The translations under genes were made by a program, and so were the position numbers. A stretch of DNA of 34,481 bases. Origin: a virus. The stretch covers positions 1 through 34,481 of the IMG/VR virus record IMGVR_UViG_3300031825_000354. One strand, 5' to 3'. Below are positions 1,262 through 26,380 of the stretch, piece by piece (within the stretch, counting starts at the first letter, position 1; each line of letters starts with the position of its first letter). The notes beneath the pieces were generated by a model, which made no database searches, had not been told where the DNA came from, and saw nothing but the letters and a program-made list of their open reading frames with translations.

Positions 1262-1291
1262 ATGGTACGGCCCGCCCGCACCCTCTCAGCG
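1262..1291 (-). promoter_or_regulatory. Late promoter module 1 (before lysozyme)
   Basis: CGCTGAGAG (1291-1283), 14 bases, then the -10-like GTACCAT (1268-1262). Six bases separate it from the lysozyme ATG at 1255, so the transcript would start at or next to the A of ATG. The module fills the gap between the stop of the membrane-protein gene at 1297 and lysozyme. Confidence 0.7.
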
Positions 1292-1296
1292 CGCGG

Positions 1297-1632
1297 CTAC
1301 TGGACCTGGAAGAGCCGCGCGATCTGCGCCCGTTCGATCCATAGGATGACCAGGACCAGCGGGACGCCGATCCAGGCCGCGCCACGGGCCCGCTCGCGCA
1401 GGGCCTCGAAAGGCTTGATCCGCCGGTCCAGGGTCGCGAGCTTGCCGAGCACGCCCGATCCGCCGGCGCCGTCCTCCTGCGGTTCCTGGCCGAGCTTGTC
1501 CAGGATGTGGTCCTGCGTGCCCTTCACCTGGTGCATGCAGCGGTGGAGATGGCGGGCCCAGGGCGGCGCCCCGGGGTCCAGCTCAGCGTCGTATTCGGCC
1601 GCCACGACGGCCAGGCTGGGCTTACGCGGCAT
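1297..1632 (-). CDS. Small membrane protein with C-terminal helix, holin/XhlA-like candidate
   Basis: Encodes 111 aa. The N-terminal 80 residues are soluble and helical, with a Gly/Glu-rich break near residues 50-62. A single hydrophobic segment (about 87-99, AAWIGVPLVLVILWI) follows, then a short charged tail. This layout resembles small XhlA-type phage membrane proteins that act with endolysins. Position next to the lysozyme supports a lysis role, but I see no decisive family motif. The ATG at 1632 was chosen over an upstream start at 1755 because GGAGGGGG lies about five bases before it. It lacks the late promoter module in front and is probably read through from the ejection-protein genes. 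Confidence 0.72.
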   Translation of the reverse strand: MPRKPSLAVVAAEYDAELDPGAPPWARHLHRCMHQVKGTQDHILDKLGQEPQEDGAGGSGVLGKLATLDRRIKPFEALRERARGAAWIGVPLVLVILWIERAQIARLFQVQ

Positions 1633-1711
1633 ATCCCCCTCCGAACCCGATGCGGCGACCCCACGATCGCCCCCCGTTGCCCTCGGCGCGAAACCGGGGC
1701 ACCTTCCCGGC

Positions 1712-1987
1712 GTGGCGCGAACCAACGATGAACAGGCGACCGAGGTCGACTTCACCGTCGTCAGCGGTCCCTACCGGGCCCACGAGGAGCACCGTGAGCG
1801 GAAGGGCTGGTTCTTCACCGGCCACTACGACGCATCCGGCGACCCCCTGTTCTACGACAGGAAGTTCTTCGCCCGACGCCGGCTCGTGCGCCGCATCGCG
1901 AACGGCTACCTGATCTTCTTCGCCGTGGCGTTCGGGCTGACAATGGGCTCGTGGTTCGTGATGAGCGCGCTGGGCCATATCCGCTGA
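1712..1987 (+). CDS. Antisense small membrane protein of unknown function
   Basis: Encodes 91 aa from GTG, the only late-region gene that I find on the plus strand. The N-terminus is polar and rich in charged and aromatic residues (GPYRAHEEHRERKGWFF, GHYDASGDPLFYDRKFFARRR). One transmembrane helix spans about residues 66-86, followed by a short tail. Positive charges before the helix predict a cytoplasmic N-terminus. It ends one base before the stop of the convergent 940-aa gene. The start is uncertain: no Shine-Dalgarno is visible, and a weak TTGCCC-N17-CACCTT pair ends six bases before the GTG. Placement suggests a moron expressed apart from the late genes, for example in lysogens; this is inference. 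Confidence 0.6.
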   Translation: MARTNDEQATEVDFTVVSGPYRAHEEHRERKGWFFTGHYDASGDPLFYDRKFFARRRLVRRIANGYLIFFAVAFGLTMGSWFVMSALGHIR

Positions 1988-1988
1988 C

Positions 1989-4811: not shown

Positions 4812-6727
4812 CACTTCACGAGTCCCAGGTCACGCGCCCGCTTCTGCTGCGCCGGCGACAGACGATTGAAGAGGCCGCGCTGGATCGCGAGCGCCAGGCC
4901 GGCGTCCGCCGACCCGGGCTTGAAGATCGGCGTCGGAGCCGGTTCGCCGCCAGCGCCGCCCTGCGGCGGCGGAGCCCCGGCCCAGCCCACCGCCTTCGCC
5001 ATCTCCGGCGTGAAGACGTAGCGATCGAAGGAGCCGGGGCCGTACCAACCCTCGACGATGGGCTTGAAGCCCTCGACGCGGGCCCGGTAGCCGTTGTTGA
5101 GCTCGCCGTAGAGCGAGTTCGCGACGGCCAGCACCTTCTGCCGCACCGCCGGATCCGCGAAGAAGCCCTCGCTCGACAGGTATCCGCGCAGGCCGGAGAT
5201 CGAGCCAGCCAGGCCCTGACCCTTGAGCTGCAGCGCCACGTCGCCTTCGCGGACCACGCCTTCGTCGATCATCCGCTGAAGGCCGTTGATCATCGCGATG
5301 TCGCCGGCGCCGTTCTGCTGCTGGTAGCCGACACGGACGCTCTCGTAGTTCCGGCGCAGCTTCTGGGCCATGTCCAGGACCGGCGCGAGTTCCTTGCGGA
5401 TCGTCTCGGTGCCCTGAAGCACCGCCTGGGGGTTCGCCGGATCGGCCGGGCCGCCCGGGATCGGCTGCTGGCCGCCGCCCTGGTACTGGTAGCCCGTGGC
5501 GGGCGGCTGCTCGCGCCGGGGATCGGCCGGGCCACCGCGGATCGGCGCGTAGCCGTCGCCCTGGACCCCGTAGCCCTGAGGCGGCGTGCCGCCGGGCACG
5601 TCCTTGAGGTTCCCGAGGGGATCGCGCTGGACGTAGGTTCCGGGCGGCGCCGTCGCGACCCCGGCCTGCTGCGCCGTCTGGACCTGCGTCATGGCTTCCT
5701 GCGGCAGGGCGATCGGCCGACGCTCGCCGGTGTAGGGGTTCACCTGGAACGGTAGGCCGTTGATCGTGGTGTTCTCCCACTTCACCGCCTCGGCCATCTG
5801 CTGGCGCAGCTTCATCACGTAGGCCACGCCCTGCTCATAGGTGCGCGGATCGCTCAGGAGCTGCTGCGCCAGCGCCCGCTGTTGCGGCGTCGGGCCCATG
5901 GTCGCGACGCCCGCCGCCGCTTGGGGAACAGACGCGGCGGGCGTCGCAGCCGCACCCCCGGCGGGCGGCGGCGCGGCAGGCGGTTGGCCCGGCGCGGACG
6001 CGGCGAGCTGAGCGTAGTCCACGGGCGGCTGTTGGCCCTGCCCCGACCCTTGGCCCTGGCCGAACGCCCAGTGCCAGTGGTCGCCTTCGTTCAGGAGTTC
6101 GGAGACCGGCGCGCCGCGGGCCTGGAGCTCCGCCCGGAACTTCTCCAGGTCCGCGCCCTGCGGCGGAACGAAGTCCCAGGCCTGGCCCTCGCCCCGGGTG
6201 TGGAAGCTGTTCGGCGCGCCGCCGACCTCGGCGTTGCGTTCGGGCGTGCGATAGCCGCTGGTGAAGGCCGCGCCGGGCACGATCTCCGAGACCAGCGCCT
6301 TGGCCCGATCCGGGGTCATTCCGGCCGAGTTCTGCAGCCCCGCGCCCGGCGAGGTCATCGCCAGGGCGAACTGCGGCCCGGGCGTCGTCTGAGGCTGCGG
6401 CGCGGCCGTCGGGGCGAGCGCCGGGGTCGGGGCCGCCGGCATCTCCCCGGTCCCTCCGAGGCCCTCCAGGAGCGCCTTCGCATAGGCGCTCTGCTCGTCC
6501 TTCACGGCCGAGATCGCGGCTCGATCCGCCCTGTCCTTGCCGTAGGACATGATCGCGTTCGCCAGGAGCTTCGTCCAAAGCTCGGTCGGGGTCGCGATCT
6601 GCTCGCTCCCCTTCTGCATGGCCTGAAGGGCTTCCGCGAGATAGCGAGACCGCTGAATCGCGGACTGGGTCTGCGGCCCGTACCGCAGTCCGGCCTGGAT
6701 CTCGGCGGGGACGCCCGAGGCCGCCAT
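4811..6727 (-). CDS. Internal virion protein with M15-type peptidase domain
   Basis: About 638 aa. Residues about 150-222 match the M15 D,D-carboxypeptidase/endolysin fold: SGYRTPERNAEVGGAPNSFH, then HTRGEGQAWDF and EGDHWHWAF. The zinc ligands would be His176, Asp185 and His219, with a nearby His217 (numbering from the ATG at 6727). A long Pro/Gln/Gly/Ala-rich disordered region follows, and a helical C-terminal domain from about 430 onward. M15 enzymes cut peptide cross-links in peptidoglycan, so this is likely a virion-borne wall hydrolase that helps DNA entry. Its context between two other ejection-type genes supports that. Peptidase assignment is from visible motifs; the stage of action is inferred. 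Confidence 0.82.
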   Translation of the reverse strand: MAASGVPAEIQAGLRYGPQTQSAIQRSRYLAEALQAMQKGSEQIATPTELWTKLLANAIMSYGKDRADRAAISAVKDEQSAYAKALLEGLGGTGEMPAAPTPALAPTAAPQPQTTPGPQFALAMTSPGAGLQNSAGMTPDRAKALVSEIVPGAAFTSGYRTPERNAEVGGAPNSFHTRGEGQAWDFVPPQGADLEKFRAELQARGAPVSELLNEGDHWHWAFGQGQGSGQGQQPPVDYAQLAASAPGQPPAAPPPAGGAAATPAASVPQAAAGVATMGPTPQQRALAQQLLSDPRTYEQGVAYVMKLRQQMAEAVKWENTTINGLPFQVNPYTGERRPIALPQEAMTQVQTAQQAGVATAPPGTYVQRDPLGNLKDVPGGTPPQGYGVQGDGYAPIRGGPADPRREQPPATGYQYQGGGQQPIPGGPADPANPQAVLQGTETIRKELAPVLDMAQKLRRNYESVRVGYQQQNGAGDIAMINGLQRMIDEGVVREGDVALQLKGQGLAGSISGLRGYLSSEGFFADPAVRQKVLAVANSLYGELNNGYRARVEGFKPIVEGWYGPGSFDRYVFTPEMAKAVGWAGAPPPQGGAGGEPAPTPIFKPGSADAGLALAIQRGLFNRLSPAQQKRARDLGLVK

Positions 6728-8112
6728 CACAGCGCCCCGTAGTCGACGGCCAGGAAGCCGCCCATGTCGTGGACCGCGTCGGGTCGGACCTGCGCCAGTT
6801 CCTGCGCCAGGACGCCGACGTGCACGGTCTCGCCGCCGAGGTAGCGGTAGGCGTAGACGCCGACGCCGTTGTCCAGCGCGCCGACCCGGCGGATGTCGGT
6901 CTTCAGGCGGGCGTCGGACAAGATGCGCGAGCCGAGCGCGCCGGCCAGCGAGCCGCCGCCGGTCATCGGCGCGGCAAGCGCGGCGGCCCCCAGCGAGAAC
7001 AGGCCCGAGAGCCCAGAGCGCTGGTTCGCCGCCTGCGCCTGATAGGCGGACTGCTGCGCCTGCTGATTGAGGGCGTAGGCCCCGAGGACGTCGGTGTTGG
7101 CGACTTGGGAGGGCGTGTACCCGATGCCTTCGGGCATGCCGACCTGGCCGGAGCTCATGAGCGCCGTGAACTGGTTGATCGGCTGGTTCTGGAGATAGGC
7201 GCGCTCCTGAAGGCCCTGCTGGCGGGCCTCGTTGCCGAACTGCGCGCTCGCGAGCTGCTGCTGGAATTGCTGCTGTTGCGCCGCGTTGTTGAACTGAGCG
7301 GCGCCGAGGTTCTGCCCGTAGTCCTGGCCCGCGGTCTGGTTCCAGAACTCCGCCTGCCCCATGTTCTGACCGTACATCTGCGCCGCGGCCTGGTTGGCGA
7401 ACTGGCCCTGCTGGAGCTGTCGGCCGAACATCGAATTGGCCGCATCCTCGCCGGCCCCAACGGCGGAGTAGATCGCCTGGTTGTAGGCGTCGTTCTTGCC
7501 CTCGGAGAACTGGCGCTGGGCGTTGGCGTAGGCTTCTGAATTGGTCGACAGGCCCTGGTCAGCCAGCCGCTGTTCCAGCGCCCGCTGCTCCCGGTCGAAG
7601 CGCGGATCGAGCCGCGAGGCGGCCTGCTGATAGACCGCCGCCATGTTCTGGTAGCGCGCCGCGTCGAGATCGCCGCCGACCTGCCCCTGGACCTGTTGGC
7701 CGGGGTCGAAGCCGTACTGCAGGGCTCGGCCCTTGTCGAAGCTGCTCTGGATGCCCTGGCCCGCGCCCGGGATCGATCCCGACAGCTCCGGGAGACCGGC
7801 TGTGGAGAGCGGCGTCGAGAGCGCCTCACCCACCCGGCCGATCTGGCTGTTCGCGACGCCGAGCGCGGCGTTCTCCGCCTGCTTGGACAGGTCGTAGGAC
7901 TGCTGCTCAGGCTGGCTGAGGCTCGTGACCTGGCGGTAGCCGCCCGGCTGTGTCGGGTCGGCCACCCAGCCGACCGACCCCTGCGGGCCGCTCGACCCCA
8001 CCATGTTCAGGCGCTGCTGTTCGCGCGCGGTCTCGATGTTGGCCTGCGCCTGCGCCTGGCTTACGGCGACGGGATCGGGCGCGGGCGGGGGCGTCGGGGC
8101 GGATTTGCCCAT
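6727..8112 (-). CDS. Internal virion protein with C-terminal S74-like autoprocessing motif
   Basis: Encodes 461 aa. The N-terminus (MGKSAPTPPPAPDPVAVSQAQ) is the type seen in many internal virion or tail proteins of podophages. The middle is a Gln/Asn-rich run of imperfect repeats (about 225-300). The last 63 residues begin SDARLKTDI (Ser399, Lys404) and continue through VGVLAQEL and DMGGFLAVDYGAL, the hallmark of the intramolecular chaperone/peptidase S74 domain, where Ser and Lys form the self-cleavage dyad. The domain is much shorter than in tailspikes, with no long coiled coil after it. GGAG nine bases before the ATG supports the start. The start lies inside the tail of the upstream GNAT frame. 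Confidence 0.82.
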   Translation of the reverse strand: MGKSAPTPPPAPDPVAVSQAQAQANIETAREQQRLNMVGSSGPQGSVGWVADPTQPGGYRQVTSLSQPEQQSYDLSKQAENAALGVANSQIGRVGEALSTPLSTAGLPELSGSIPGAGQGIQSSFDKGRALQYGFDPGQQVQGQVGGDLDAARYQNMAAVYQQAASRLDPRFDREQRALEQRLADQGLSTNSEAYANAQRQFSEGKNDAYNQAIYSAVGAGEDAANSMFGRQLQQGQFANQAAAQMYGQNMGQAEFWNQTAGQDYGQNLGAAQFNNAAQQQQFQQQLASAQFGNEARQQGLQERAYLQNQPINQFTALMSSGQVGMPEGIGYTPSQVANTDVLGAYALNQQAQQSAYQAQAANQRSGLSGLFSLGAAALAAPMTGGGSLAGALGSRILSDARLKTDIRRVGALDNGVGVYAYRYLGGETVHVGVLAQELAQVRPDAVHDMGGFLAVDYGAL

Positions 8113-8587
8113 CGTTCAAGGCTCCAGTTTGGGCCTCGCGCTCTTCTCCGAACCGACCACGTCGCCATTCCTTGGCGAGAAGACCGTAGATGACGGCGTG
8201 ATCGTCCCTGAAGCCTAGGCGTGCCACGCCCTCGCGCTTGAACCCGAGACGTTCCAGGAACCGGCGCGGCTCGTCGCTCTTGAGCGGTGTCACGCTGGTG
8301 CAGCGGACACATTCTAGGTCGCCGAAGGGGTATCTCAGCAACGCGCGCACGATGTCCTCGGTCAGCCACCGGCGGCCCTCGGACGCGCAGCTCAGTTCGA
8401 TGTTCCCGAAGAGCGGCTGGTAGTTGTGATAGACCACCCCGCCGGTCAGGAAGCCCCTGGCGTTCTCGACGCCGATGGCCCGGCAGGGCCCGAACACCTC
8501 GCCGTATTCCGCCTCCGCCACGAGCGGCGCGAGCTTGGGGATGCGCAGGGCCACCCAGTGCGCCACCGCCTTGTCCTGGCCGTACAC
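7907..8587 (-). CDS. GNAT-fold N-acetyltransferase-like virion-module protein
   Basis: Residues about 1-155 look like a GNAT acetyltransferase: a beta-rich first half, then RRFLERLGFKREGVARLGF and DDHAVIYGLLAKEWRR, typical of the C-terminal strands of the fold. Proteins of this kind are often found beside the nozzle and internal virion genes of podophages; their substrates are unknown. The start is probably the GTG at 8587, five bases after the nozzle gene stop, but it is weakly marked. The frame stays open 206 bases into the next gene (start 8112) and adds about 67 residues rich in Arg, Ala, Gly and Pro that resemble out-of-frame translation. The true protein may end near 8100, or a stop may have been lost. 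Confidence 0.72.
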   Translation of the reverse strand: MYGQDKAVAHWVALRIPKLAPLVAEAEYGEVFGPCRAIGVENARGFLTGGVVYHNYQPLFGNIELSCASEGRRWLTEDIVRALLRYPFGDLECVRCTSVTPLKSDEPRRFLERLGFKREGVARLGFRDDHAVIYGLLAKEWRRGRFGEEREAQTGALNDGQIRPDAPARARSRRRKPGAGAGQHRDRARTAAPEHGGVERPAGVGRLGGRPDTAGRLPPGHEPQPA

Positions 8588-11235: not shown

Positions 11236-11810
11236 CGGCCCTCTCCCTTCGCGCCGGCCTCGCGGAGCTTCTGAATCTCCTCGGCCATCTGGTCGATCTG
11301 CTCTTTCATGGCCGAGATTGTCTCACGGAGCTGCTCGTTCTCAGCGGCCAGCGCATCGGCCGGCGCCGCCCCCTTCGCCGCGTCCAGGTAGCGCCTGGCC
11401 TTGTCGCGGATCGCGAAGCCGCCCATCGGGATCGCGCGGGACAGCGCGGCGTCGTCGAGCGCCGCGAGCGTCTCGACGGTGCGGATGTGGAAGTAGGACA
11501 ACTCCTCGACCTGACCGCGCGTGACCCCGGGCCATTCGGAAAGGGGCGTGCCGTGCTCCGGCGCTTCCTGGTTGTCCTTGAAGGCCCGATAGCGGTCCGG
11601 CCAGCGCTGGCGGTGCTCGTCCTTCACCCGTTCGTCCACCGTGGACTTCTGGCCGGGAATGACGATCTCGACGTACTCGACGTCGTCGAAGATCGGCCGG
11701 CCCTCGAGCTTGGTCCGGAACTCGTTCTTCACCGGGCGCATGTAGAAGCGCGGGATGGTGATGTCCTTCTCCGCCGCGCCGGGCGTCGAGAAGCCGTGAA
11801 GCTCGCTCAT
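11232..11810 (-). CDS. Conserved phage head-module protein with C-terminal coiled coil
   Basis: Encodes 192 aa. The N-terminal part (FYMRPVKNEFRTKLEGRPIF, VEYVEIVIPGQKSTVDERV, RWPDRYRAFKDNQEAPEHGTPL) matches my recollection of an unnamed family near capsid genes in many tailed phages. Residues 100-130 (TRGQVEELSYFHIRTVETLAAL) look like a helix-hairpin-helix. A coiled coil of about 35 residues (ENEQLRETISAMKEQIDQMAE) closes the protein. The ATG at 11810 overlaps the stop of the glycosyltransferase-like gene (ATGA); longer in-frame translation upstream is shadow. The function is unknown, and a scaffold or connector-assembly role would be a guess. Confidence 0.75.
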   Translation of the reverse strand: MSELHGFSTPGAAEKDITIPRFYMRPVKNEFRTKLEGRPIFDDVEYVEIVIPGQKSTVDERVKDEHRQRWPDRYRAFKDNQEAPEHGTPLSEWPGVTRGQVEELSYFHIRTVETLAALDDAALSRAIPMGGFAIRDKARRYLDAAKGAAPADALAAENEQLRETISAMKEQIDQMAEEIQKLREAGAKGEGR

Positions 11811-13354: not shown

Positions 13355-13421
13355 TGGCGCGCATGAAGAAGGGCGGCCCCCCGGAGGCGACCGCCCGTCC
13401 CCTTGGACACTCAGGGAGCGG

Positions 13422-13724: not shown

Positions 13725-14696
13725 TTAGTTGGCGAACAGGACGCCCTGAAGCTGGGCGTTGCTGAGGGTGGCGTTCCCCATGAAGCCGATGAACTTCGCG
13801 ACGGCGTCCTGGTTGGCCGAGACGCGATCGCCGCCGAACGGAACCATGTTGCGGTCCTTGTGGGGCCGCCAGTGCAGGTACCGGGTGTTCAGCATGTACA
13901 TGTGCTTGTCGGGGCACGCCCCGCCGACACCGCCGTCCAGGACGACGTCCGCGCCCTTGTACTTCAGGGTCACGAAGCCGGCGTCGGCGTCCGTCGAAGA
14001 CGTGACGCGCTGGATCGCCTGCATGGCGGACTCGAAGTAGCCGTAGAACTCGTCGTCGGCCAGGATCAGGTCCGGCTTGTCGGTCCCGCGGACCAGGCGG
14101 TTGTAGAGCGCGTTCATCATCCGAAGGATGTTCGACGCGCTTGGCGCCGAGCCCCCGTCCGACGTGCACTGGAACTTCTGGTTACGCCAGAAGTCGTAGT
14201 TCACGCGGCTGATGCCCCCCACCGTGCCGGTCGTCGGATCGTCGGCGACCAGGAGCTGAAGGCCCCCGATCTGCTTGCCGTTGTCCGCCGTGCCGTTCGA
14301 GTAGAGGTCGGCGCCGATGTTGTTCTGGAAGTCCGCCTCGGCGTTCTCGATGCGGGTCTCCATAAGGTCGATGACCTTCTCCGAGCCGCTGTTCATCAGC
14401 AGCTCCCGCCCGGAGATCGAGACCGAGATGGCGGCCTGCTTGTGGTCGAACTCGGCCGCGGTGATCACGTCCGAGGGCGACACGTTCAGCAGCTCGTAGC
14501 CGGCGTAGCGGATGAAGGTGTTGTTGCCCGGGTAGCTGATCGGCTGGAGGATGACGTGGCCGCCGTCCACCGGCTTGATCCGGCCGCGCTTCTTCAGCGC
14601 CCGCAGCAGGGCGTTGTTGTTCGAGATGTTGTCCGCCGTGACCGCGCTGCGGTTCTCCAGCGTGGTGGTCAGGATGTCGGAATAGTTCAGAGCCAT
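13725..14696 (-). CDS. Major capsid protein
   Basis: Encodes 323 aa, predicted to build the icosahedral head with the HK97 fold. Support comes from size, position directly after the scaffold gene, and capsid-like blocks: an N-terminal arm (NYSDILTTTLENRSAVTADNI), a spine-helix-like SEKVIDLMETRIENAEADFQNNIGADLY, and the late segment DLILADDEFYGYFESAMQAIQR then KYKGADVVLDGGVG, which resembles the A-domain/peripheral strands of podophage coat proteins. GGGA nine bases before the ATG marks the start. The capsid identity is strong from context and pattern; the subfamily is not assigned. Confidence 0.88.
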   Translation of the reverse strand: MALNYSDILTTTLENRSAVTADNISNNNALLRALKKRGRIKPVDGGHVILQPISYPGNNTFIRYAGYELLNVSPSDVITAAEFDHKQAAISVSISGRELLMNSGSEKVIDLMETRIENAEADFQNNIGADLYSNGTADNGKQIGGLQLLVADDPTTGTVGGISRVNYDFWRNQKFQCTSDGGSAPSASNILRMMNALYNRLVRGTDKPDLILADDEFYGYFESAMQAIQRVTSSTDADAGFVTLKYKGADVVLDGGVGGACPDKHMYMLNTRYLHWRPHKDRNMVPFGGDRVSANQDAVAKFIGFMGNATLSNAQLQGVLFAN

Positions 14697-16174: not shown

Positions 16175-16204
16175 ATTATCCAGCCGCTCCCGCCGCTCTC
16201 AGCG
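16175..16204 (-). promoter_or_regulatory. Late promoter module 3 (before the scaffold-capsid block)
   Basis: CGCTGAGAG (16204-16196), 14 bases, then GGATAAT (16181-16175), eight bases before the ATG at 16166. A GCGCGCCG stretch adjoins the -35-like element on its upstream side, as in the other copies. Confidence 0.75.
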
Positions 16205-16221
16205 CGGCGCGCATCGGGCGC

Positions 16222-16504: not shown

Positions 16505-17092
16505 TCATCCCCAGGGCGAGAAGCCGGACGGTACGGCGTACACGAACGGCTCCTGACCGCAGTTCAGCTCGGCGCCCGAGCCGTTCGCGGCGCCCGCCGA
16601 CAGGTACGCGACAAAGGCGCTGTACTCGTAGCCGCCGGTTCCGGCGCTCGGGTCGCCATTGAGCCAGACGCCATTGAGAGACCACCAGATCTTCTTCGCC
16701 CCCGCCGCATTGGCTATGCCGATCACGTCTCCGAGCCCGTAGGGCGAGTAGGACGCTACGGTCCCGCCGCCGGCCACCAGTGCACCATCGGTCCCGTAGC
16801 CGATGCCGCTGATATTCGCCCCAAGCATCTGCGACAGGGACGCCGCGTCGGTCGCCATCCCGATCCTCAGATCAGCAGATCCGCGCGCGGTCAGTTCGGC
16901 ATATTTCTTGTCGGCGCCGGTCGCGTTGCTCGTCGTGGATCTGACGATGTTCGCAGTTGCGCCATCCACCGTCATTACGAGGTCGGCGGCGGATAAATCG
17001 ACGCCGGCGCCCTTATCCGAGGGATTCCATGTGGTGGTCCCGCCGACGCCGACGGGCCGGCCCAACAGCACGAGCAGTTGGGCCGGCGTCAC
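16505..17092 (-). CDS. SPRY-like domain protein, probable tail appendage
   Basis: Encodes 195 aa from a GTG that overlaps the stop of the fibre gene (GTGA at 17089-17092). After a short lead, residues 21-195 follow the SPRY/B30.2 pattern: WNPSDKGAGVDLSAADLVMT, KKYAELTARG, DLRIGMAT, GIGYGTDGALVAGG, then GDVIGIANAAGAKKIWWSLNGVWLNG (121-146) and the closing NCGQEPFVYAVPSGFSPWG. SPRY domains bind proteins or glycans. In a phage fibre cassette it probably decorates the fibre tip or the virion surface. The fold call is by pattern; the ligand is unknown. Confidence 0.75.
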   Translation of the reverse strand: MTPAQLLVLLGRPVGVGGTTTWNPSDKGAGVDLSAADLVMTVDGATANIVRSTTSNATGADKKYAELTARGSADLRIGMATDAASLSQMLGANISGIGYGTDGALVAGGGTVASYSPYGLGDVIGIANAAGAKKIWWSLNGVWLNGDPSAGTGGYEYSAFVAYLSAGAANGSGAELNCGQEPFVYAVPSGFSPWG

Positions 17093-17760
17093 GCGAAGCT
17101 CTTCCCGGCAAGGAAGCCCTGCCAGGTCACGCCGCCGTCGAAGGATATGAACCCCAGGACGTGCTTCCCGTTCGGCAGGACCGGTTTCGTGCCGTTCTGC
17201 CATTCGACGGACGCGGGCCAGGTCGGAACCGCGCCGCCGCTGATCGTGAGCCGCACCGCGAAAGCCTGCGCCTTGCTCGCCGTGGCGTTGGAGAACGTGA
17301 ACGTCGTGTTGGCGCTGATCGACTTGGTGAAGCTGTCGGCGGCCGAGAGGTCGAAGTCGGTCGACGCCACGGCCTGGACGTTGCCCTTGACCGACCCCGA
17401 ATAGGTGATCCCGCCGGTGAGGGTCGGTGCGTTGGCCGCCGCGGCGCCGATGTTGGTCCGCGCCGTGGCCGCATTGGCGACTTCCGAGAGGTTGTTCGAG
17501 ACCTGGAAAAGCGCCGAACTCGCCAGCAGGGCCGCTGTCCCAAGACCGAGACTGGTCCTGGCGGCGGACGGCGAGGCTAGGTCCGACAGGTTGTTGCTGA
17601 CCTGTAGGTAGGTGGCGCCCAGGTCCGCGCCCACGGCGCTGACCAGGATCGACCACTGCATCTTCTTCAGCAGCGAGGCCGAGATGTCGTAGACGACGAA
17701 CACGTCCACGTCGTCGGGCTCGGTGAGGCTCGAAAGCTGGTCTGGTGTCTTATCGTCCAT
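17089..17760 (-). CDS. Tail fibre protein with tandem stalk repeats
   Basis: Encodes 223 aa. Two copies of a fibre repeat lie at residues 52-74 and 85-107 (LQVSNNLSDLASPSAARTSL and FQVSNNLSEVANAATARTNI), 33 residues apart, the kind that forms trimeric stalks. The C-terminal half is beta-rich (TFTFSNATASKAQAFAVRLTI, HVLGFISFDGGVTWQGFLAGK) and ends in a knob-like domain. It is the first gene behind promoter module 4. The ATG is nine bases from the -10, with no Shine-Dalgarno. It probably takes part in receptor binding together with the SPRY-like protein encoded next. Confidence 0.8.
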   Translation of the reverse strand: MDDKTPDQLSSLTEPDDVDVFVVYDISASLLKKMQWSILVSAVGADLGATYLQVSNNLSDLASPSAARTSLGLGTAALLASSALFQVSNNLSEVANAATARTNIGAAAANAPTLTGGITYSGSVKGNVQAVASTDFDLSAADSFTKSISANTTFTFSNATASKAQAFAVRLTISGGAVPTWPASVEWQNGTKPVLPNGKHVLGFISFDGGVTWQGFLAGKSFA

Positions 17761-17769
17761 GACCCGCGC

Positions 17770-17799
17770 AGTTTAGGGCCGGGCCCAGGCCTCTCAGCG
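17770..17799 (-). promoter_or_regulatory. Late promoter module 4 (before the fibre/SPRY block)
   Basis: CGCTGAGAG (17799-17791), 14 bases, then CTAAACT (17776-17770), nine bases before the ATG at 17760. The -10 resembles the Caulobacter-type GCTANAWC. GCGCGCGG lies just upstream, directly after the TAG of the GH16 gene. Confidence 0.72.
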
Positions 17800-17806
17800 C
17801 CGCGCG

Positions 17807-19525
17807 CTACGCCAGGTCCCAGACCCGGACGTAATCCACGTAGGCGTGGACCGGCGGGCTGACCGACGCGGCTTCCTGGGGCAGCAGCTGGTTGGACAGC
17901 AGCAGGAACATCGGCTCCCGGAACTCGTCCCGCATCGGCAGGCGCGAGAGCTCCACCCGGTCCAGGTAGAAGATCATCCACTCGTCGGTCAGCAGGACGC
18001 CGTGGGTGTGCCACTCCCCGTCCGCGAGGCCGGCGAGGCTCTGATAGCTGCCGGTCTGCCAGTGCTGCGAGACCTCGCCCACCTGGAGGTTGGCGGCGGG
18101 GCGCAGGTGGACCGCCTTGTGGTGGCCGGTCGGGTTGGCGCCGGGGTAGTATTCCAGCACGTCGATCTCGGCGCGGGTCTTCGTGGCGTCGGTGTAGAGG
18201 CCGGCGGTGTAGAGCCAGAACGCGGCCCAGCAGCCCATCTGGCCGGTCGGGACCTTCATGCGGGCCTCGAAGTAGCCGTAGGCCTGACTGAAGCCCTCCC
18301 CGTCGCTCCCCACGGTCTGCATGTGGGCCGCGTACTTGGTCCCCGCGACATCCCGGATCTGAAGGTCGAGCACGCCAGCCGTGACGCTGAACGGGTCGCT
18401 GGCCTCGCCCGGGATGCCGTAGTCCGCCGCGCCGACCTTGGCCCGAACCGGCGAGCGCCAGGGGCCGGCCCCCTCGTCCAGGCTGATGCCCGACGTGTCT
18501 GTGAACACGTCCTCGAACGTCATGGTCCCGAGGAGCGCTTCGTTCAGGGCCGTCCCCGCATCGGCCTCCGAGAACACGTAGGTGCTTGGCGGGGCGTAGG
18601 GATCGGGCGGAATGGGCTCGTAGGGCGGGTTGGCGGCCTCTGCCGGGTCGTAGGAGCCCAGGAGCTGCAGCAGCGCCCCGAGCGAGCGGTAGAGCCGGAC
18701 TTCCTCCCGCTCGGTCAGGCCCTTGCCGTAGATGAAGGCCCCGATCCGTCGCGGCGAGCCGATGGCGTCGTCCGGGGTGCCGTCGAACTGCTCGTAGTGC
18801 CCGATCAGCAGCTCCAGGTCGCCCAACTGGACCGAGGGCCCGCCGGCCGCGCCGCACTGGACACCGTTGCGGCGAAGGACCGTGCTGGCCTCGCCCAAGC
18901 GGGTCGCGCCGGTCAGGCCCACCGCCGTGGTGATCCCGCTCGTGGCCGCCGCGGCGCTCCTGAAGGTGTGCTGGCGGGCGATCCGGCCCGCGACGGTCGT
19001 TGGAAGCCCGGTGAGCTGGTCGGTCTCGATGCCCTTGACGAAGGACCACTCCGACCCGGCCTCGGGCGCCGTGCCGGTCAGGGGCGTGTATTCGTTGGAC
19101 AGGATGAAGGCATAGACCCCGCAGTCATTCAGCGTCGCCCGGATCGCGTCCCGCTCGGGGATGAAGCCGGTGCGCCAGAACCCGCCCGTCGTGGGGTTGG
19201 ACCGCAGGCCGCCCTGCGGCGCCACTTCCCCTGCCCCGGCCCGGACCAGGCGGAACCGCGACGGGTCGCAGAGGTTGACCCCCGCCTCGTCCGCCGAGAA
19301 ATGGCCGGTCACATAGAACAGGTCCGACTTGCCGATGATGTCGGCGTTCATGCGGACGAACCAGTCATAGGCCGCGGTCATCTCGGCGCCAGGGCTCGAT
19401 CCCATGGCCGCGATCCAGCGGGCGGTGATCGGGTGCAGGCCGGAAGCCGGAGCATTCGCGGCCCCGGCCCGCATGGCCCGGCGGATCGCCCCCAGGCCCG
19501 CGCCACCATCGACCGTGCCGGGCAC
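17807..19525 (-). CDS. Tail depolymerase: fibre domain fused to a GH16 glycanase
   Basis: Encodes 572 aa. Residues 1-285 are paralogous to the protein encoded just upstream (19525-20370): same MP-x-TV-x-x-G start, similar central strands, and the same closing block (SPRRIGAFIYGKGLTEREE against SPRRVCFCYAGGILTDRPA). A Pro-rich linker (about 297-315) joins it to a GH16 beta-jelly-roll domain with the diagnostic motif EIDVLE at 453-458: Glu453 nucleophile, Asp455, Glu458 acid/base. GH16 enzymes cut beta-glucans or galactans, so this is likely a virion enzyme that opens host exopolysaccharide or capsule. GTG start at 19525 overlaps the preceding TAG. The polysaccharide substrate cannot be told from sequence. 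Confidence 0.88.
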   Translation of the reverse strand: MPGTVDGGAGLGAIRRAMRAGAANAPASGLHPITARWIAAMGSSPGAEMTAAYDWFVRMNADIIGKSDLFYVTGHFSADEAGVNLCDPSRFRLVRAGAGEVAPQGGLRSNPTTGGFWRTGFIPERDAIRATLNDCGVYAFILSNEYTPLTGTAPEAGSEWSFVKGIETDQLTGLPTTVAGRIARQHTFRSAAAATSGITTAVGLTGATRLGEASTVLRRNGVQCGAAGGPSVQLGDLELLIGHYEQFDGTPDDAIGSPRRIGAFIYGKGLTEREEVRLYRSLGALLQLLGSYDPAEAANPPYEPIPPDPYAPPSTYVFSEADAGTALNEALLGTMTFEDVFTDTSGISLDEGAGPWRSPVRAKVGAADYGIPGEASDPFSVTAGVLDLQIRDVAGTKYAAHMQTVGSDGEGFSQAYGYFEARMKVPTGQMGCWAAFWLYTAGLYTDATKTRAEIDVLEYYPGANPTGHHKAVHLRPAANLQVGEVSQHWQTGSYQSLAGLADGEWHTHGVLLTDEWMIFYLDRVELSRLPMRDEFREPMFLLLSNQLLPQEAASVSPPVHAYVDYVRVWDLA

Positions 19526-20370: not shown

Positions 20371-20373
20371 GGA

Positions 20374-20756: not shown

Positions 20757-22850
20757 TCACGCGGTCGCCTGCGGGGTGGGATCGCGGCCGAGGGCGAAGA
20801 CCTTGGCGGAAGCGAGCCGTTCGCGGAGCGCCATGTCGGCGCCGTCGACCTGCGCCTGAAGCTGCGTCCTGAAGTTCTCGCCCTGCTGCTTGACCTGTTC
20901 GCGCTGGAGGTTGAGCCCGGCCACTTCCACCGGCGTCTTGTCCGGCGGCGGCGCTGCCTCCTGAGGCTGCGGCTGCTGCGCCGCGCCCATGAGCTGGTTG
21001 ATCGACTGCTCGATGATCTGTTCGAGCTCGCGCCCGGCGCGGAACCGGCGCATCGCGAACTTCAGCATCTCCGCCGCCATTGGGCCGAGTTGAGGCGCCT
21101 GTTGGACCACCGGGCCCCACTGCTGCATGAACGACGCCACCGCCTGGAGGAGCTCGACGGTCTGCGCCTTCTCCTCCTGCTCGTTCGGCTCGATGGTCGA
21201 GTCCGTCTCGATGTCGATGCGGAAGGCCCGCGCGGCGTTGTCCCGCAGCATCGCGACCACGTCTTCCCAGGTCGGCGACTGGAGCGCCTGAAGGATCTGC
21301 GGCGGCACCTGCTGGCCGGTCATCGCCGCCTGCCTGGCCTGAAGCTCGAGCTGCGCCTTGTCGGCGGCCGTCGGGAGTTGCACGCCGGTCATCGCCGCGA
21401 AGGTCTCCGGCGAGAAGTGCTCCGCCATGACCTCGCCCTTGATCCGCAGAACGTCCCGGGCGAAGCGCGCCAGCTCCTTCTGACGGTCGCGGATGCGCAG
21501 CGAGCCCCACTGGGCCTTCAGGCTCTGGGCGCCGTAGGTCTCGCCGGGGTCGGTGGCCCCGCGCAGGATGTCGGCGACGCCGGTGATTTGGTAGACGTCC
21601 TGGATGATCTGGGCCCGGAGGTCGATGCACGCCTTGAGCGTCGTCACGACCTTGTCGATCGGCCACCACTCCACCTTCCCGTTGACCCCGCCGTCCCCCG
21701 CGAAGTTCTTCCAGTCCGCGACCGGAACCAGCGTGCCGTTCGGCGACTCCAGCGCCTGCGTCAGGTCCAGCTTGGCCTCGCCGGCATAGAAGCCCACGAC
21801 CTTCAGCGCCTTCTGCAACTCGCCGATCTTGGCGGTGAGCTCGTCGATCTCCTTCGCCTGGTCCTGATAGGCGATGTAGTCCGGCACGGGGATCAGGCTG
21901 TCGTTGGCGATCACGCCCAGCGCCGGCCGCGGGCAGGGGAAGAACCCGTCCAGCCGCAGCGGGTCGGCCCGCTTGTCCAGTACCGCGTCCGGCCAGCTCT
22001 TCGAGATCCAGAGGGCGCAGCGCTCGTTCTTGTCCCAGACCTCGTAGATCGCCGCCCGGCGTGACATGTCGACCTCGTCCGGAGAGCCCGACTGTTTGGC
22101 CGGGTAGTCCAGCGGGATTTTGTTCCCGAGCTCCTTCCCGAAGCGCTCCACGAGCTGCTTGCGGCTCATGAACACCCGGCGCCAGACGTACCAGACCTCG
22201 TTCCAGGTCCGGGCCGGCGTGTGGCCGAAGTCCTCATAGGAGACGTAGTCCGTGATCGACTGCTCGAAGATCACCGGCCGGTAGGTGCTCTTGGCGACGT
22301 AGCCGCCTTCACCGTCCTCTTCGACGGTCTCGGCGTCGTAGCGGTCGCCGTCCTCGGTCTCGTAGCAGACGCCTGCGTCCGTCGTGACCTGGAGAACCTT
22401 GACCTCCTCGGTCTGCTCCGGCCCGTAGGTCGGGACGTAGCGCTCCCAGGTCTGGCAGCGGGCGATCAGCACGTAATCGAGCGCCGCCGTCCTCAGGACC
22501 TCGCCGAGGTCGTTGGCGTCGACGCTGTAGGACAGGCCGCGCTCCAGCACTTCCGTCGCGACCCGTGCGACCGGGTCGGCGTCCTTGAAGCGCCGGCTCA
22601 CCACCGGCTCCGGCGGCCGCGAGAAGGCCGCAGGCAGGATGGTCTGTGTGTTGGAGTAGAGGAGGGCGTAGCCGCGCTCCGCCCTCTCGCCGCGCTCCTG
22701 CTTGTACTTCCGGAAGATGCCGCGGCTGCGGGTCAGCCACTTCTGCTGCGCGCGCTCGGAGGTGCCGAGTTCGGAGATCCACCGGCGCGCTTCGGCCGCC
22801 GACTCCTCGTCGGGCGTCTTCTTGCGGTTCGCGGGGGCCAAGTACGCCAT
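20757..22850 (-). CDS. Portal protein
   Basis: Encodes 697 aa, close in size to the P22-type portals. Key blocks are NTQTILPAAFSRPPEPVVSRRF and LEVLERGLSYSVDAND-like text near 75-125, the central crown and stem segment with QDVYQITGVADILRGATDPGETYGAQSLKAQWGSLRIRDRQKELARFARDVLRIKG (about 420-480), and a Gln/Pro-rich C-terminal tail. Twelve copies should form the DNA channel at one head vertex. It follows the large terminase gene and heads its own block behind promoter module 5. The ATG is only six bases after the -10, so translation should be leaderless. Confidence 0.9.
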   Translation of the reverse strand: MAYLAPANRKKTPDEESAAEARRWISELGTSERAQQKWLTRSRGIFRKYKQERGERAERGYALLYSNTQTILPAAFSRPPEPVVSRRFKDADPVARVATEVLERGLSYSVDANDLGEVLRTAALDYVLIARCQTWERYVPTYGPEQTEEVKVLQVTTDAGVCYETEDGDRYDAETVEEDGEGGYVAKSTYRPVIFEQSITDYVSYEDFGHTPARTWNEVWYVWRRVFMSRKQLVERFGKELGNKIPLDYPAKQSGSPDEVDMSRRAAIYEVWDKNERCALWISKSWPDAVLDKRADPLRLDGFFPCPRPALGVIANDSLIPVPDYIAYQDQAKEIDELTAKIGELQKALKVVGFYAGEAKLDLTQALESPNGTLVPVADWKNFAGDGGVNGKVEWWPIDKVVTTLKACIDLRAQIIQDVYQITGVADILRGATDPGETYGAQSLKAQWGSLRIRDRQKELARFARDVLRIKGEVMAEHFSPETFAAMTGVQLPTAADKAQLELQARQAAMTGQQVPPQILQALQSPTWEDVVAMLRDNAARAFRIDIETDSTIEPNEQEEKAQTVELLQAVASFMQQWGPVVQQAPQLGPMAAEMLKFAMRRFRAGRELEQIIEQSINQLMGAAQQPQPQEAAPPPDKTPVEVAGLNLQREQVKQQGENFRTQLQAQVDGADMALRERLASAKVFALGRDPTPQATA

Positions 22851-22856
22851 GGCCGT

Positions 22857-22886
22857 AGTCTAAGGCGGCGAGGAGACCTCTCAGCG
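22857..22886 (-). promoter_or_regulatory. Late promoter module 5 (before the portal block)
   Basis: CGCTGAGAG (22886-22878), 14 bases, then TTAGACT (22863-22857), six bases before the portal ATG at 22850. The module fills the 41-bp gap between terminase stop and portal start. Confidence 0.75.
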
Positions 22887-22891
22887 CCGCG

Positions 22892-24541
22892 CTACAGCCG
22901 CTCTTCCCGCCTCGGCGTGCTGGCGTGCAGCTCGTCCCAGGTCATCTGGTTCAGCCCGCGGGGCGCTTCCGGAGCCGGCGGCGGCTCCGGCTTCACCACC
23001 GCCGGAAGCGCCAGGTCGATCGCCCGCGCCATGATCGCCAGCATGTCGACCTCCTCATCATCCCTCCCGGCCGGGAATTTCACGTACCTGTCGATGATCT
23101 CGTCTCCCTCCGGCCCCTCCGGAACCCAGATCAGGCCCATGGAGGCCATGCCCTGCGCCGCCTGCGCCTTGGTGGCCTTGTCGTGGCCGTGGGGGCTCAT
23201 GGCGTGGAGGATGGTGTGCACGCCCTCTTCCTTCATCTGCCGGACGATGAAGGGCCGGGCCGCCTTCCAGTTGTTGTCGTCCTCCGGGAGCCAGGCATAG
23301 ACCCCCCACTTGCGCAGCAGCCCGTTCATCGGCGTCGGAGGGTCGGGGCGCCGAGGCCCCGTCTTCAGGTTCCCCACGATCCGGTCCGCTGTCACGTCCA
23401 TGGTCGCCCGGTGCAGGAAGCCGTCGCGCAGATAGACGTCGCCCGAGGCCGCAAGGCCCCACACCCGGGCGCCCGACGGGTCGCTTTCGTCGCCGTCGGT
23501 CGGAGCGTGGTCGCTTGTGAGGTAGTGCCGCAGCGCCAGGCCCTCGATGTCCGCCGGCCGGTAGCGCCGGAACCAGTCCCGCTTGAAGAACGTGCCTTCC
23601 GCCGGAGCTGGCCGTTGCTGGTAGAGCGCCGACCAGGTCCGCGCGTTGCGCCGTGCCGCGGTCCAGAAGTCCGGGTCCTTGCCGAACCACTCCGGCCACA
23701 GCATTTCCCCGGGCTTTCGGCCAAGCGGGTCCTTGGCCTCGGCTTCAGCCGGGATGCAGAGCACCTCCCAGTCCAGGCCGTCCTTGCACCGGAAGATCCC
23801 GCTCTCGCCGTCCCAATCGTCCGGCAGGAGACCGCCGGCAAGGTCATCCTCGTGCCAGCGGGTCAGGATCATGAGCACCCAGCCGTGCGGCTTCAGGCGC
23901 GTGCGGACCGTGTCCTCGAACTCCTCGCGGGTCCGCTGGCGCACCTGCTCGGAATCGGCGTCCTGGCGGTTCTTGATCGGGTCGTCGACCACGAACCCGT
24001 CCGCGCGGTTGCCCGTGATCCCGGACAGGATGCCCCCGCCCATGAACTCCGAGCCGTTGGTGAGCGCGAACTCCTCGGCGGCCCGGCTCTCTGGATCGAG
24101 CCCGCACCGCATGATGTCCCGATAGACCGGCTGGCGGGTCACGGCCCGCATCCGGCGGCCCATCTTGCGCGCCAGGTCGCTCGCGTAGGTCCCGAGGATG
24201 ATGTTGCGTCGCTTCCGGCCCATGGCCCAGGCCGGGAAGACGACGGAGGCGTAGGTCGACTTCGCGGAGCCGGGGGGCATGAAGACCATGGCCCGCCGCG
24301 TCCGGCCGCTCTCCAGGCGTTCGCAGAGGTCGATCAGGGCCTTGTGGTGGGCGGCCTGCGGCGTCTCGATAGGCTGGAACTTCCAGTCCGCCGCCTCGTC
24401 ATCCTCCTCGCCGACCGGCGCGCCGGGGATCTCGATCATGCCGCAGAAGGCGTGCAGGCTGTCGCGCGCGTCGACGCAGTCCAGGGCGTACCAGGCGCCC
24501 GCCGGGTCCGCCGCGATCCGATCCTCCAGCGACACGCTCAC
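22892..24541 (-). CDS. terL: Terminase large subunit
   Basis: Encodes about 549 aa, the ATPase and nuclease that packages DNA. Walker A is MPPGSAKST and Walker B is GFVVDDP; in numbering from the GTG at 24541 they lie near residues 88-96 and 183-188. The nuclease domain shows acidic clusters at YLTSDHAPTDGDESD and near the C-terminus (DEEVDMLAIMARAIDLA). I chose the GTG at 24541 because GAGGAG lies five bases before it; an upstream ATG at 24577 has no comparable site. It sits 123 bases after the preceding small gene and directly before the portal block, the standard order. Confidence 0.92.
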   Translation of the reverse strand: MSVSLEDRIAADPAGAWYALDCVDARDSLHAFCGMIEIPGAPVGEEDDEAADWKFQPIETPQAAHHKALIDLCERLESGRTRRAMVFMPPGSAKSTYASVVFPAWAMGRKRRNIILGTYASDLARKMGRRMRAVTRQPVYRDIMRCGLDPESRAAEEFALTNGSEFMGGGILSGITGNRADGFVVDDPIKNRQDADSEQVRQRTREEFEDTVRTRLKPHGWVLMILTRWHEDDLAGGLLPDDWDGESGIFRCKDGLDWEVLCIPAEAEAKDPLGRKPGEMLWPEWFGKDPDFWTAARRNARTWSALYQQRPAPAEGTFFKRDWFRRYRPADIEGLALRHYLTSDHAPTDGDESDPSGARVWGLAASGDVYLRDGFLHRATMDVTADRIVGNLKTGPRRPDPPTPMNGLLRKWGVYAWLPEDDNNWKAARPFIVRQMKEEGVHTILHAMSPHGHDKATKAQAAQGMASMGLIWVPEGPEGDEIIDRYVKFPAGRDDEEVDMLAIMARAIDLALPAVVKPEPPPAPEAPRGLNQMTWDELHASTPRREERL

Positions 24542-24664
24542 GGGTGCTCCTCGGTCGGACGCTCCCGGAGACCGCATCCCGCCAACCGTCTTGCGAACGG
24601 CTGTGACCCTCCCGCGAGAGGGCCGCTGAAAAGGGGTGCGGCCTCCGGATTCGCCACGCTCCGC
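24542..24664 (-). other. Untranslated gap before the large terminase
   Basis: This 123-base gap has no copy of the late promoter module. It contains short dyads on the minus strand (CCCTC-N6-GAGGG; CCGT-N7-ACGG) and the GAGGAG ribosome site of terL. I see no terminator or gene in it. Confidence 0.4.
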
Positions 24665-25070: not shown

Positions 25071-25211
25071 CTATGTGGCTCGTTCTCCGTGGGGCCGCCC
25101 GCTCCTGATCATCGCCAGCGTTCGGCCGGCCAGCGTCAGCCGCTCGTGCGCCGCCCGCCCGAAGGCCGCGCGCAAGGCGTTGAAACTGTGGCCCAGGTCC
25201 TGCCGGCTCAC
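25071..25211 (-). CDS. 46-aa hypothetical protein
   Basis: Found by reading the minus strand between two accepted genes. A GTG at 25211 overlaps the TGA of the upstream 73-aa gene (GTGA), and the frame encodes MSRQDLGHSFNALRAAFGRA and continues for 46 residues to a TAG at 25071. The product is basic and helical, with balanced amino acid composition. The coupling and the lack of any other gene in this space favour a real gene. No function can be given. Confidence 0.55.
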   Translation of the reverse strand: MSRQDLGHSFNALRAAFGRAAHERLTLAGRTLAMIRSGRPHGERAT

Positions 25212-25429
25212 TGTTGCGCCCCCACCAGCCGGCGGTCCCAGAGTGCGTCGTGCTGGACGTTCCAGTCCGCCAGCACCACCGAGGCGAACGCCAGCGTCAG
25301 GTCCAGGTCCGTCCCTTCGGCCAGGAGCTGCGCCAGCGCCTGACGCTTCTGTTGCGCCAGGTCGTGGGCCGCCTCCAGGTACTGCTCGTTGGTCGTGAAG
25401 GCTTCGCGCCTCAGGGCGATGGTGGTCAT
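25208..25429 (-). CDS. 73-aa hypothetical helical protein
   Basis: Encodes 73 aa from an ATG that overlaps the stop of the membrane-peptide gene (ATGA at 25426-25429). The sequence is helix-prone (NEQYLEAAHDLAQQKRQALAQLLAEGTDLDLTLAFASVVLADWNVQHDALWDRR), with no motif I recognise. It is one of a chain of small coupled genes between the terminase subunits. Longer translation upstream in the frame is shadow. Confidence 0.68.
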   Translation of the reverse strand: MTTIALRREAFTTNEQYLEAAHDLAQQKRQALAQLLAEGTDLDLTLAFASVVLADWNVQHDALWDRRLVGAQQ

Positions 25430-25608
25430 TGGCGGACCACCGCCGCCATGAAGCCGAAAGCGATCAGGGCGCCACCGACCCAGCCCATGCCCACCGCATG
25501 CTCCGCAGACATCCGCATCGCCAGCGCTGCGATGCTCAGTCCTGCCAAGACAGCGCTGCTGACCAGCACATAAGCCGCCAGCGCCGCCAAATAGGACCTC
25601 TCGCTCAT
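25426..25608 (-). CDS. Two-helix membrane peptide, holin candidate
   Basis: Encodes 60 aa with two transmembrane helices: about residues 8-31 (AALAAYVLVSSAVLAGLSIAALAM) and 40-57 (GMGWVGGALIAFGFMAAVV), joined by a short polar turn. Small size, two helices and a charged N-terminus fit a class II-like holin, which would release the signal-less endolysin. Its place between terminase genes, far from the lysozyme, is odd for a holin. The ATG overlaps the small terminase stop (ATGA). Confidence 0.68.
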   Translation of the reverse strand: MSERSYLAALAAYVLVSSAVLAGLSIAALAMRMSAEHAVGMGWVGGALIAFGFMAAVVRQ

Positions 25609-26342
25609 CCTTCATCCTCCATCGCGCGCTTGATCGCGGCGCGGATCGCGTCCCGCTTGGCCTGCGGAAGGGCTGCCAACTCGTCGGTCAGGGGCCGGTG
25701 TTCGATGGGGCCGCCGCCGGCGCCGGTGTGCTCCTGGCGCTTCGGCGCGCTCAGGCCCAGGTGGTCGAACAACAGGGACAGGGCGCCGTCCTGGCTACGC
25801 ATCTTGATCTCGAAGCCGTCCCGGGTCTGTCGGGCTCCGGCGTAGAGCCGGCGCGCCGCCCCGCTGAGGTTTCGCGTGTCCGCTGCATAGACCCGCCCGA
25901 AGCCCTCGCCGCCGCACGCCTCGCAGTCCGGGTTAGGTTCCCGGTCCAGGACCGGAGGATCCTGGCGGCGAGTGCGCTTCAAGGCCCCGCCATGCGGCTG
26001 TGCTTCCCGCTCCTCGGCGGTCTGGACGAAGCCGATCCCCCCGGCGGGCATCCAACACGCCGGGCAGGCGCCGCGCCGGTACTGGACCAGTTCGTTGGGG
26101 TCCGCCGTCGCGATCTCCCACAGGTGCTGCAGGACCGCTTCCCGCGTGATCCCGGTCCGCTGCGAGCGCTCGTCCTTGAGCCGGGCGATCTCGGCCGCGA
26201 CGCCAACATGCTCCAACAGCCGCGGGCCCGAGCTGTGCGCCGTCTTGGGGCTGTAGCCGGCGCGGATCGCGGCCTGGGTGGCGTTGAGGTCCACCAGGTA
26301 CTCCTCGGCGAAGCGGCGCTGCTTGTCGTTGAGGTCAGCCAT
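25605..26342 (-). CDS. terS: Terminase small subunit with zinc-knuckle insertion
   Basis: Encodes 245 aa. The N-terminus is typical of the Terminase_2 family: LNDKQRRFAEEYLVDLNATQAAIRAGYSPKTA, with a helix-turn-helix for DNA recognition at the packaging site. Two CxxC pairs (Cys93/Cys96 and Cys140/Cys143) flank an inserted segment and probably bind zinc. The C-terminal part contains the family block TRNLSGAARRLYAGARQTRDGFEIKM. It is the first gene behind promoter module 6. The ATG is eight bases from the -10, with no Shine-Dalgarno. Confidence 0.9.
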   Translation of the reverse strand: MADLNDKQRRFAEEYLVDLNATQAAIRAGYSPKTAHSSGPRLLEHVGVAAEIARLKDERSQRTGITREAVLQHLWEIATADPNELVQYRRGACPACWMPAGGIGFVQTAEEREAQPHGGALKRTRRQDPPVLDREPNPDCEACGGEGFGRVYAADTRNLSGAARRLYAGARQTRDGFEIKMRSQDGALSLLFDHLGLSAPKRQEHTGAGGGPIEHRPLTDELAALPQAKRDAIRAAIKRAMEDEG

Positions 26343-26350
26343 GGCCGCCT

Positions 26351-26380
26351 ATTCTCCGCCTCTGGAGACGGCTCTCAGCG
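26351..26380 (-). promoter_or_regulatory. Late promoter module 6 (before the terminase block)
   Basis: CGCTGAGAG (26380-26372), 14 bases, then GGAGAAT (26357-26351), eight bases before the ATG at 26342. This is the first module met by transcription from the early region, so it marks the start of the late genes. Confidence 0.75.

Follow-up and report, generated by a model that had tools for sequence, protein, structure and literature searches.

The DNA analyzed here is IMG/VR virus record IMGVR_UViG_3300031825_000354 (34,481 bases, 69.7% GC; hereafter the window, meaning this whole stretch), and it carries on its minus strand a repeated, promoter-like element ahead of the genes for virion assembly and lysis, together with a gene encoding a 119-amino acid winged-helix protein that is a candidate regulator of this element. 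By gene content the phage reads as temperate, with an integrase gene (phrog_1, E 4e-25) and a repressor-like helix-turn-helix gene on the plus strand, and genes for replication protein, terminase, portal, head, tail-fibre and lysozyme on the minus strand. A preliminary description of this sequence had reported six copies of a late promoter module, each consisting of an invariant 9-mer, a gap of 14 bases and a -10-like heptamer. Our exact count confirmed that the 9-mer, CGCTGAGAG, is present in exactly six copies, every one of them on the minus strand where it had been reported, and that the complete arrangement of 9-mer, gap and heptamer reads true at 6 of 6 copies. In 100 dinucleotide-preserving shuffles of the window the same 9-mer occurs 0.86 times on average and at most three times. 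Using a hand-made gene list, under which 1283 of the 27795 bases between 737 and 28531 are intergenic, all six 28-bp cores were found to lie fully between genes, as had been described. Expressed in -35/-10 terms, the constant gap is 16 bp (CTGAGA-N16-hexamer).

At five of the six copies an ATG follows the -10 after 8, 6, 9, 8 and 6 nt, respectively, a distance that leaves no room for the usual leader with a ribosome-binding site. The promoter of the terminase small subunit unit (26351-26386) contains the GCGC box, CTGAGA at 26373-26378 and the -10 GAGAAT at 26351-26356, with an ATG 8 nt on (score 24.8 in the matrix test described below), and the gene that it precedes occupies 25605-26342 (minus strand, as are all the promoters and genes in this paragraph; phrog_51, E 5e-46). 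At the portal unit (22857-22892; score 25.8), CTGAGA and the -10 TAGACT are followed after 6 nt by the ATG of the portal gene (20757-22850; phrog_12082, E 9e-193), for which a leaderless mRNA is predicted. The promoter of the tail-fibre-like unit (17770-17805; -10 TAAACT, ATG after 9 nt; score 24.9) precedes a gene at 17089-17760 (phrog_9017, E 3e-15), that of the scaffold/major capsid unit (16175-16210; -10 GATAAT, ATG after 8 nt; score 24.0) serves the unit of the major head protein (13725-14696; phrog_9953, E 3e-110), and the lysozyme promoter (1262-1297; -10 TACCAT, ATG after 6 nt), with the lowest score of the six at 14.0, precedes a phage lysozyme gene (737-1255; PF00959, 23.8 bits with a cut-off of 22.3; phrog_33534 and phrog_7). 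The remaining copy (13325-13360; -10 GATAAT; score 24.4) has, instead of a close ATG, a GGGGA leader and a TTG start at 13309 or 13297, i.e., 15 or 27 nt downstream, and a similar GGGGA leader is present in the related phages G005, G007 and G008. The view that the copies head the late operons is supported by the comparisons below, but some of the labels given to these units need correction: the first gene past the 13325 promoter, proposed to belong to an adaptor unit, encodes a glycosyltransferase/MptE-like protein (11807-13297; phrog_1962, E 2e-18; PF01973, 69.3 bits with a cut-off of 34.6), and the product of 17089-17760, labeled as SPRY, matched tail-fibre PHROGs and, at E<=0.01, neither SPRY nor any other Pfam family.

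A search of viral contigs with the terminase large subunit (TerL; 22892-24577, minus strand; phrog_38, E 4e-81) identified 137 related stretches, of which the best 80 were taken as loci, and the same module is present in several of the loci nearest in sequence (L008/L009/L061, L011, L012 and L083). The contig behind L012, G005, is probably a complete phage genome of ~55.7 kb, since its ends share a repeat of ~127 bases and TerL spans them. The invariance of the 9-mer applies within the window but not across these relatives, where the core is CTGAG with GC at positions -8/-7 relative to it, and the element refined over the relatives reads GC(GC)-N4-CTGAG(V)-N16-NA(TA)MT. In a pool of five phages (the window, G004, G005, G007 and G008), CTGAGA-N16-NANNNT is found at 32 places when both strands are counted, and 13 other spacers give between 0 and 7 occurrences; the late strand alone has 31, where 180 versions with permuted letters average 1.25 (next highest, 9). 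When 2919 hexamer placements 16 bp ahead of a start-preceding NANNNT were compared in these five phages, CTGAGA came top with 23, followed by 13 for the next, and in a ranking of start-associated hexamers (4-35 nt) it took first place in the pool, held or shared that place in the window, G004, G007 and G008, and was second in G005. GC is found at -8/-7 in all 25 start-associated CTGAGA sites (these include homologous sites of related phages and are not 25 independent events), though there was no selection for GC, and the -10 at these sites reads NATAMT.

With any sixth base allowed and GC required, the relaxed element has 56 matches on the late strand and none on the opposite strand of 11 pieces (249 kb), i.e., the window, G004, G005, G007, G008, two pieces of G692, L007, L010, L057 and L195, of which L195 owes its inclusion to the pattern and L010 and L057 owe theirs to a matrix scan. 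The sixth base of CTGAGN is A at 37 of these sites, C at 11, G at 6 and T at 2. L007, the nearest relative by TerL (70%), contains 0 of the 56 sites, and has a weaker variant, CTAAGC (score 12.2), ahead of an ATG. A blind scan of viral contigs with the DNA pattern returned 11 contigs, 5 of which code for clear relatives of window genes (L193 among them is the already known G007); a sixth, L191, showed weak terminase similarity only. Enrichment of k-mers over whole records was dominated by coding repeats and was uninformative. The arrangement of two hexamers at a fixed spacing ahead of gene starts is seen in the relatives as well (spacer of 16 at 32 sites; ATG at 5-9 nt in 27 of 56), and the element, its spacing, its strand bias and its conservation are established by computation.

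To examine the window with information from elsewhere, we used a matrix built from 18 sites of four relatives, which excludes the window sites but includes homologs of them. The eight highest scores on the late strand of the window (14.0-25.8; the next is 3.4) are the six sites, a seventh at 8338 (8311-8346) and an eighth at 11344 (11317-11352), and all eight have GC at -8/-7. The maximum on the opposite strand is 10.2, and the maxima of ten simulated windows range from 4.8 to 12.9, so that the lysozyme site (1289) and 11344 are only just above chance. The seventh site (minus strand; score 20.5) was overlooked earlier because the base following CTGAGA is T. It sits within the 3′ part of an open reading frame (ORF) at 10339-7907 with an acyltransferase-like end, and 198 nt ahead of the start, at 8112, of a virion structural protein gene (6727-8112, minus strand; phrog_6121, E 5e-64). 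G005, G008 and G692 preserve its core at the corresponding position, although the surrounding reading frame, which is open in the window and in G008, is interrupted in G005 and G692. The eighth match (minus strand; score 14.1), with an ATG 7 nt downstream, lies within a coding region for which G005, G008 and G692 have similar sequence, and is doubtful, being either an internal start or a coincidence.

Of the 56 relaxed sites, 39 are followed by an ATG no more than 39 nt away; the distance is 5-9 nt at 27 of these, 20 of which have exactly 6 nt between the -10 and the ATG, and 11-36 nt at the remaining 12. The 17 sites with no such ATG include some with GTG or TTG starts and some in coding sequence. 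With transcription starting 7 nt past the -10, an ATG 6 nt past it predicts leaderless mRNAs. Such mRNAs are common in Caulobacter crescentus, for which PMC4117421 gives 375; the likeness is a start at the ATG, and the difference is that here they are predicted and belong to phage late genes. The six copies originally described are thus joined by a seventh site, a regulator gene and this leaderless layout.

The gene for the 119-amino acid winged-helix protein, a candidate late activator, is located directly ahead of the first late promoter (26396-26755, minus strand). Homologs, found by local tblastn and profiles, are present in L083, L008/L009/L061, L011, G005, G692 and L188, and precede the terminase genes wherever that region is covered. 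Two new contigs found via the protein alone, L213 and L215, both have the element at the 3′ end of the regulator gene. The six loci with a close homolog (L008, L009, L011, L061, L083 and L167) contain 3-5 elements each, and represent about three phages, because the regulators of L008, L009 and L061 are near-identical and L083 and L167 are one contig. The 157 loci without the regulator contain 9 elements in total: L012 accounts for 4, and its full record, G005, does carry the regulator; the incomplete L010 has 1, and L026, L076, L087 and L098 have one match each (reversed control, 1). We also compared the 74 window ORFs of at least 40 amino acids between 26396 and the right end with the motif-bearing G004, G005, G007, G008, G692 and L188 and with seven other records. 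The regulator ORF was the sole sense-strand match to the motif-bearing phages, in 6 of 6, and also matched G009; its antisense ORF matched G005, and the remaining ORFs matched none of the six, of which G008 and L188 say little on early genes because they have little sequence upstream of the regulator. The terminase small subunit is likewise not shared across the motif-bearing records. The linkage of this gene to the element is thus established computationally.

Genes for delayed-early activators lie just before late genes, and the gene order found here, i.e., replication gene, regulator, promoter, terminase, suits such an activator. The AlphaFold2 (AF2) model of the protein is a winged helix with a long C-terminal helix (predicted local distance difference test, pLDDT, 84.9). 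No Pfam or NCBIfam family was matched at its cut-off; Trans_reg_C gave 17.1 bits (cut-off 26.2; E 0.0057) with the window protein and no match at E<=1 with four homologs. A search of viral contigs with the window regulator confirmed 0 of 13 candidates, a search of a phage collection with the L061 regulator gave no match, and among 289 genomes of the class there was one weak match. The top VIA match of the model is the activation domain of MotA (1bja; Z 10.6, root-mean-square deviation 4.0, 93 aligned), and the best Foldseek matches, at E 6e-3, are MarR-family proteins, several of them named repressors. The latter would fit a winged-helix protein acting as a repressor or anti-activator at the same promoters, with GCGC-N4-CTGAG as an operator over the -35 that silences them until late, and the association data fit activation and repression alike. 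A repressed promoter should, however, be strong unaided, and here the -35 and -10 are both poor; the position of the gene just ahead of the late genes, as with delayed-early activators, also speaks for activation, and we consider repression quite unlikely.

A search of 390 Caulobacteraceae genomes for the major capsid protein (MCP) gave 4 matches. One of these, G692 (~4 Mb), contains a close prophage split across two contigs, to which the virus contigs L185 and L217 (IMG isolate 2837455513) correspond, with matching identities and promoter sequences. In G675 and G586, neither element nor regulator was found in the prophage stretch examined, although a separate contig of G675 has a distant regulator homolog that is broken by an internal stop, and in G544 the MCP match is in a short locus. 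All 5 matches to the full leaderless pattern in the G692 genome are within the split prophage (reversed control, 0), as are 4 of 6 matches to the strict pattern; we therefore rejected a host-wide promoter in G692, as 0 of 5 full and 2 of 6 strict matches are outside the prophage. This near-absence from one host genome, established by computation, bears on whether the element could be an ordinary promoter of the host main sigma factor that works with no phage factor and a tolerated -35. CTGAGA does match 4 of 6 bases of TTGACA (the CTGAGC, CTGAGG and CTGAGT variants match 3 of 6), the -10 resembles TATAAT, and PMC4287350 places the start of 93% of Caulobacter RpoD motifs at -34 to -37. Against this, the GC at -8/-7 falls outside the -35 and the pattern is nearly absent from G692, and such an origin seems highly improbable.

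The host genomes also bear on a reading in which an alternative sigma factor or another host transcription factor recognizes the element and the winged-helix gene just happens to lie next to it. The two-box layout with a fixed 16-bp gap would suit a sigma factor, and sub-cutoff matches to sigma region 4 were found in G004 and G005 and none in the window, which counts against an activator; sigma region 2 (PF04542), however, was found at E<=1 in 0 of 5 phages, of which those other than G005 may be fragments, and in 11 of 14 control genomes. With the GC box omitted, the leaderless pattern gives 52 matches in 40 of 120 genomes of the order of the Caulobacter metagenome-assembled genome G012, vs 12 for the reversed control, which favors a host factor, but this is ~0.4 per genome and at most 5, i.e., no regulon. 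In G012 itself (5 Mb) the loose pattern gives 35 matches vs 18 for the reversed control, and so no large host regulon, and the counts outside the G692 prophage would leave a host factor with hardly any targets in that genome. We regard recognition by an alternative sigma factor or another host transcription factor as unlikely. For a single-subunit polymerase, PF00940 was found in 0 of 5 phages, and the control search was likewise without any match.

Judged from these comparisons, the element represents a real, conserved and phage-specific family of probable promoters with a strong candidate regulator, and the description of a phage-specific late module with a weak -35 and a possible need for an activator gains support from the relatives. 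We think it probable that these are phage-specific late promoters (six, or seven with 8311-8346) opened by the 119-amino acid activator, which would recruit the host RNA polymerase. The protein (26755-26396, minus strand) would be made from an early leftward operon and would then open the late operons. Host RNA polymerase with its main sigma factor would use the -10 (NATAMT), and the weak, non-consensus -35, CTGAG(V), would be overlapped by the site for the activator, which has GC(GC) as its second part, starting 8 bp further upstream. With a start 7 nt past the -10, CTGAG(V) would occupy -34 to -29 and GCGC about -42 to -39, and the predicted start at many sites would be the A of the ATG, with those mRNAs leaderless. 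GCGC and GAGA, 10 bp apart, may be two half-sites on one face of the DNA. PhoB-type activators touch sigma region 4, and an activator bound here could do the same. We infer that the 119-amino acid protein binds here and activates instead of repressing, that the main sigma factor is the one used, that expression is late, and where transcription starts. That an undescribed winged-helix family would alone re-target the host polymerase to a bipartite box replacing the -35, i.e., appropriation of sigma by one protein, is a more tentative possibility.

Several observations weigh against an activator acting through this element. The linkage of the glycosyltransferase/MptE gene to the element is about equal to that of the regulator, this gene being present in G004, G005, G007, G008 and G692 (5 of 6 motif-bearing records) and in 0 of 7 others, and is itself downstream of a late promoter. 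Distant regulator homologs are present in L018, L013 and L088, with no element in those loci as covered, and inspection by eye ahead of 11 homologous genes of the L018 record found no substitute motif. The L018 (G009) homolog is without the conserved SHRPP stretch, which, together with the lack of elements, is compatible with, and not proof of, a changed specificity. Foldseek gave no match to the regulator model at E<=0.001, VIA Z values of 9-10 are shared with ribosomal proteins, with ribosomal S19e close behind MotA, and repression by the winged-helix protein would yield the same association. The site counts are not independent, because the phages and their homologous sites are kin, and the 11 pieces were picked partly for carrying the element. 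A ranking of hexamers by position only, dominated by GC-rich words, placed CTGAGA first in 0 of 6 records (rank 105 in the window). Within the window the 9-mer with one mismatch allowed occurs 14 times vs 21.4 expected, and a longer pattern with two mismatches 12 times vs 10.9; the excess is lost once mismatches are allowed, and so the signal there is the exact motif.

The proposed activator invites comparison with known systems. T4 middle promoters are alike in that a phage box takes the place of the -35 while the -10 and host RNA polymerase are kept and MotA contacts sigma region 4 (PMC6755090), and it is the MotA activation domain that is the top VIA match. The window protein differs in having one domain, in its GCGC-N4-CTGAG box, which is not centered at -30, and in serving virion and lysis genes; the resemblance to MotA is one of fold only, to its activation domain, with unrelated winged helices close behind. 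OmpR/PhoB/ToxR-type regulators are alike in the sub-cutoff Trans_reg_C match, in the TcpP, ToxR and AfsR complexes among the Foldseek matches and in the two possible half-sites 10 bp apart over the -35; the window protein is unlike them in having no receiver or membrane domain, in falling under the family cut-off and in the long C-terminal helix of its model. P2 Ogr, Mu C and lambda Q are made before the late genes, are needed for the late operons and are encoded near the start of the late region. The candidate gene is similarly placed; those proteins have other folds, and lambda Q is an antiterminator at one promoter, compared with about seven promoters here. Our searches of open-access literature yielded no paper on this element or regulator; the logic of the switch is of a known kind, and the element and protein are undescribed in that literature.

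Other features of the window were also observed. Inside the replication gene, at 28022-28119, three 29-nt direct repeats (CGGGACA...CGGGACA) with 22-bp spacing lie alongside an AT-rich stretch and are probable iterons, i.e., an origin. The protein encoded at 17807-19525 contains a glycosyl hydrolase family 16 (GH16) domain (PF00722) with no counterpart in the compared records, and is a possible depolymerase, and the glycosyltransferase/MptE protein (11807-13297) is possibly an enzyme that glycosylates the virion or the surface. The window integrase (32734-33975) has a 53% match to G009/L018 and none to any motif-bearing record; this integrase is common to the window and G009, yet G009 is without the promoter element, which points to module exchange.

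Together, about seven promoters and one candidate regulator would make up a nearly complete late-gene switch. The phage group concerned is represented here mainly by virus contigs from the environment, and by a single prophage from a sequenced genome of the Caulobacteraceae. The element is useful for recognizing related phages in sequence data, as 5 of the 11 contigs from the blind scan were clear relatives, and leaderless late mRNAs are predicted for the group. The unclassified regulator may offer a way of recruiting host polymerase comparable with those of T4 MotA and the PhoB/ToxR proteins. If this is true, a one-protein switch would turn on most virion operons, many of them through leaderless mRNAs, in phages of Caulobacteraceae and perhaps their kin.

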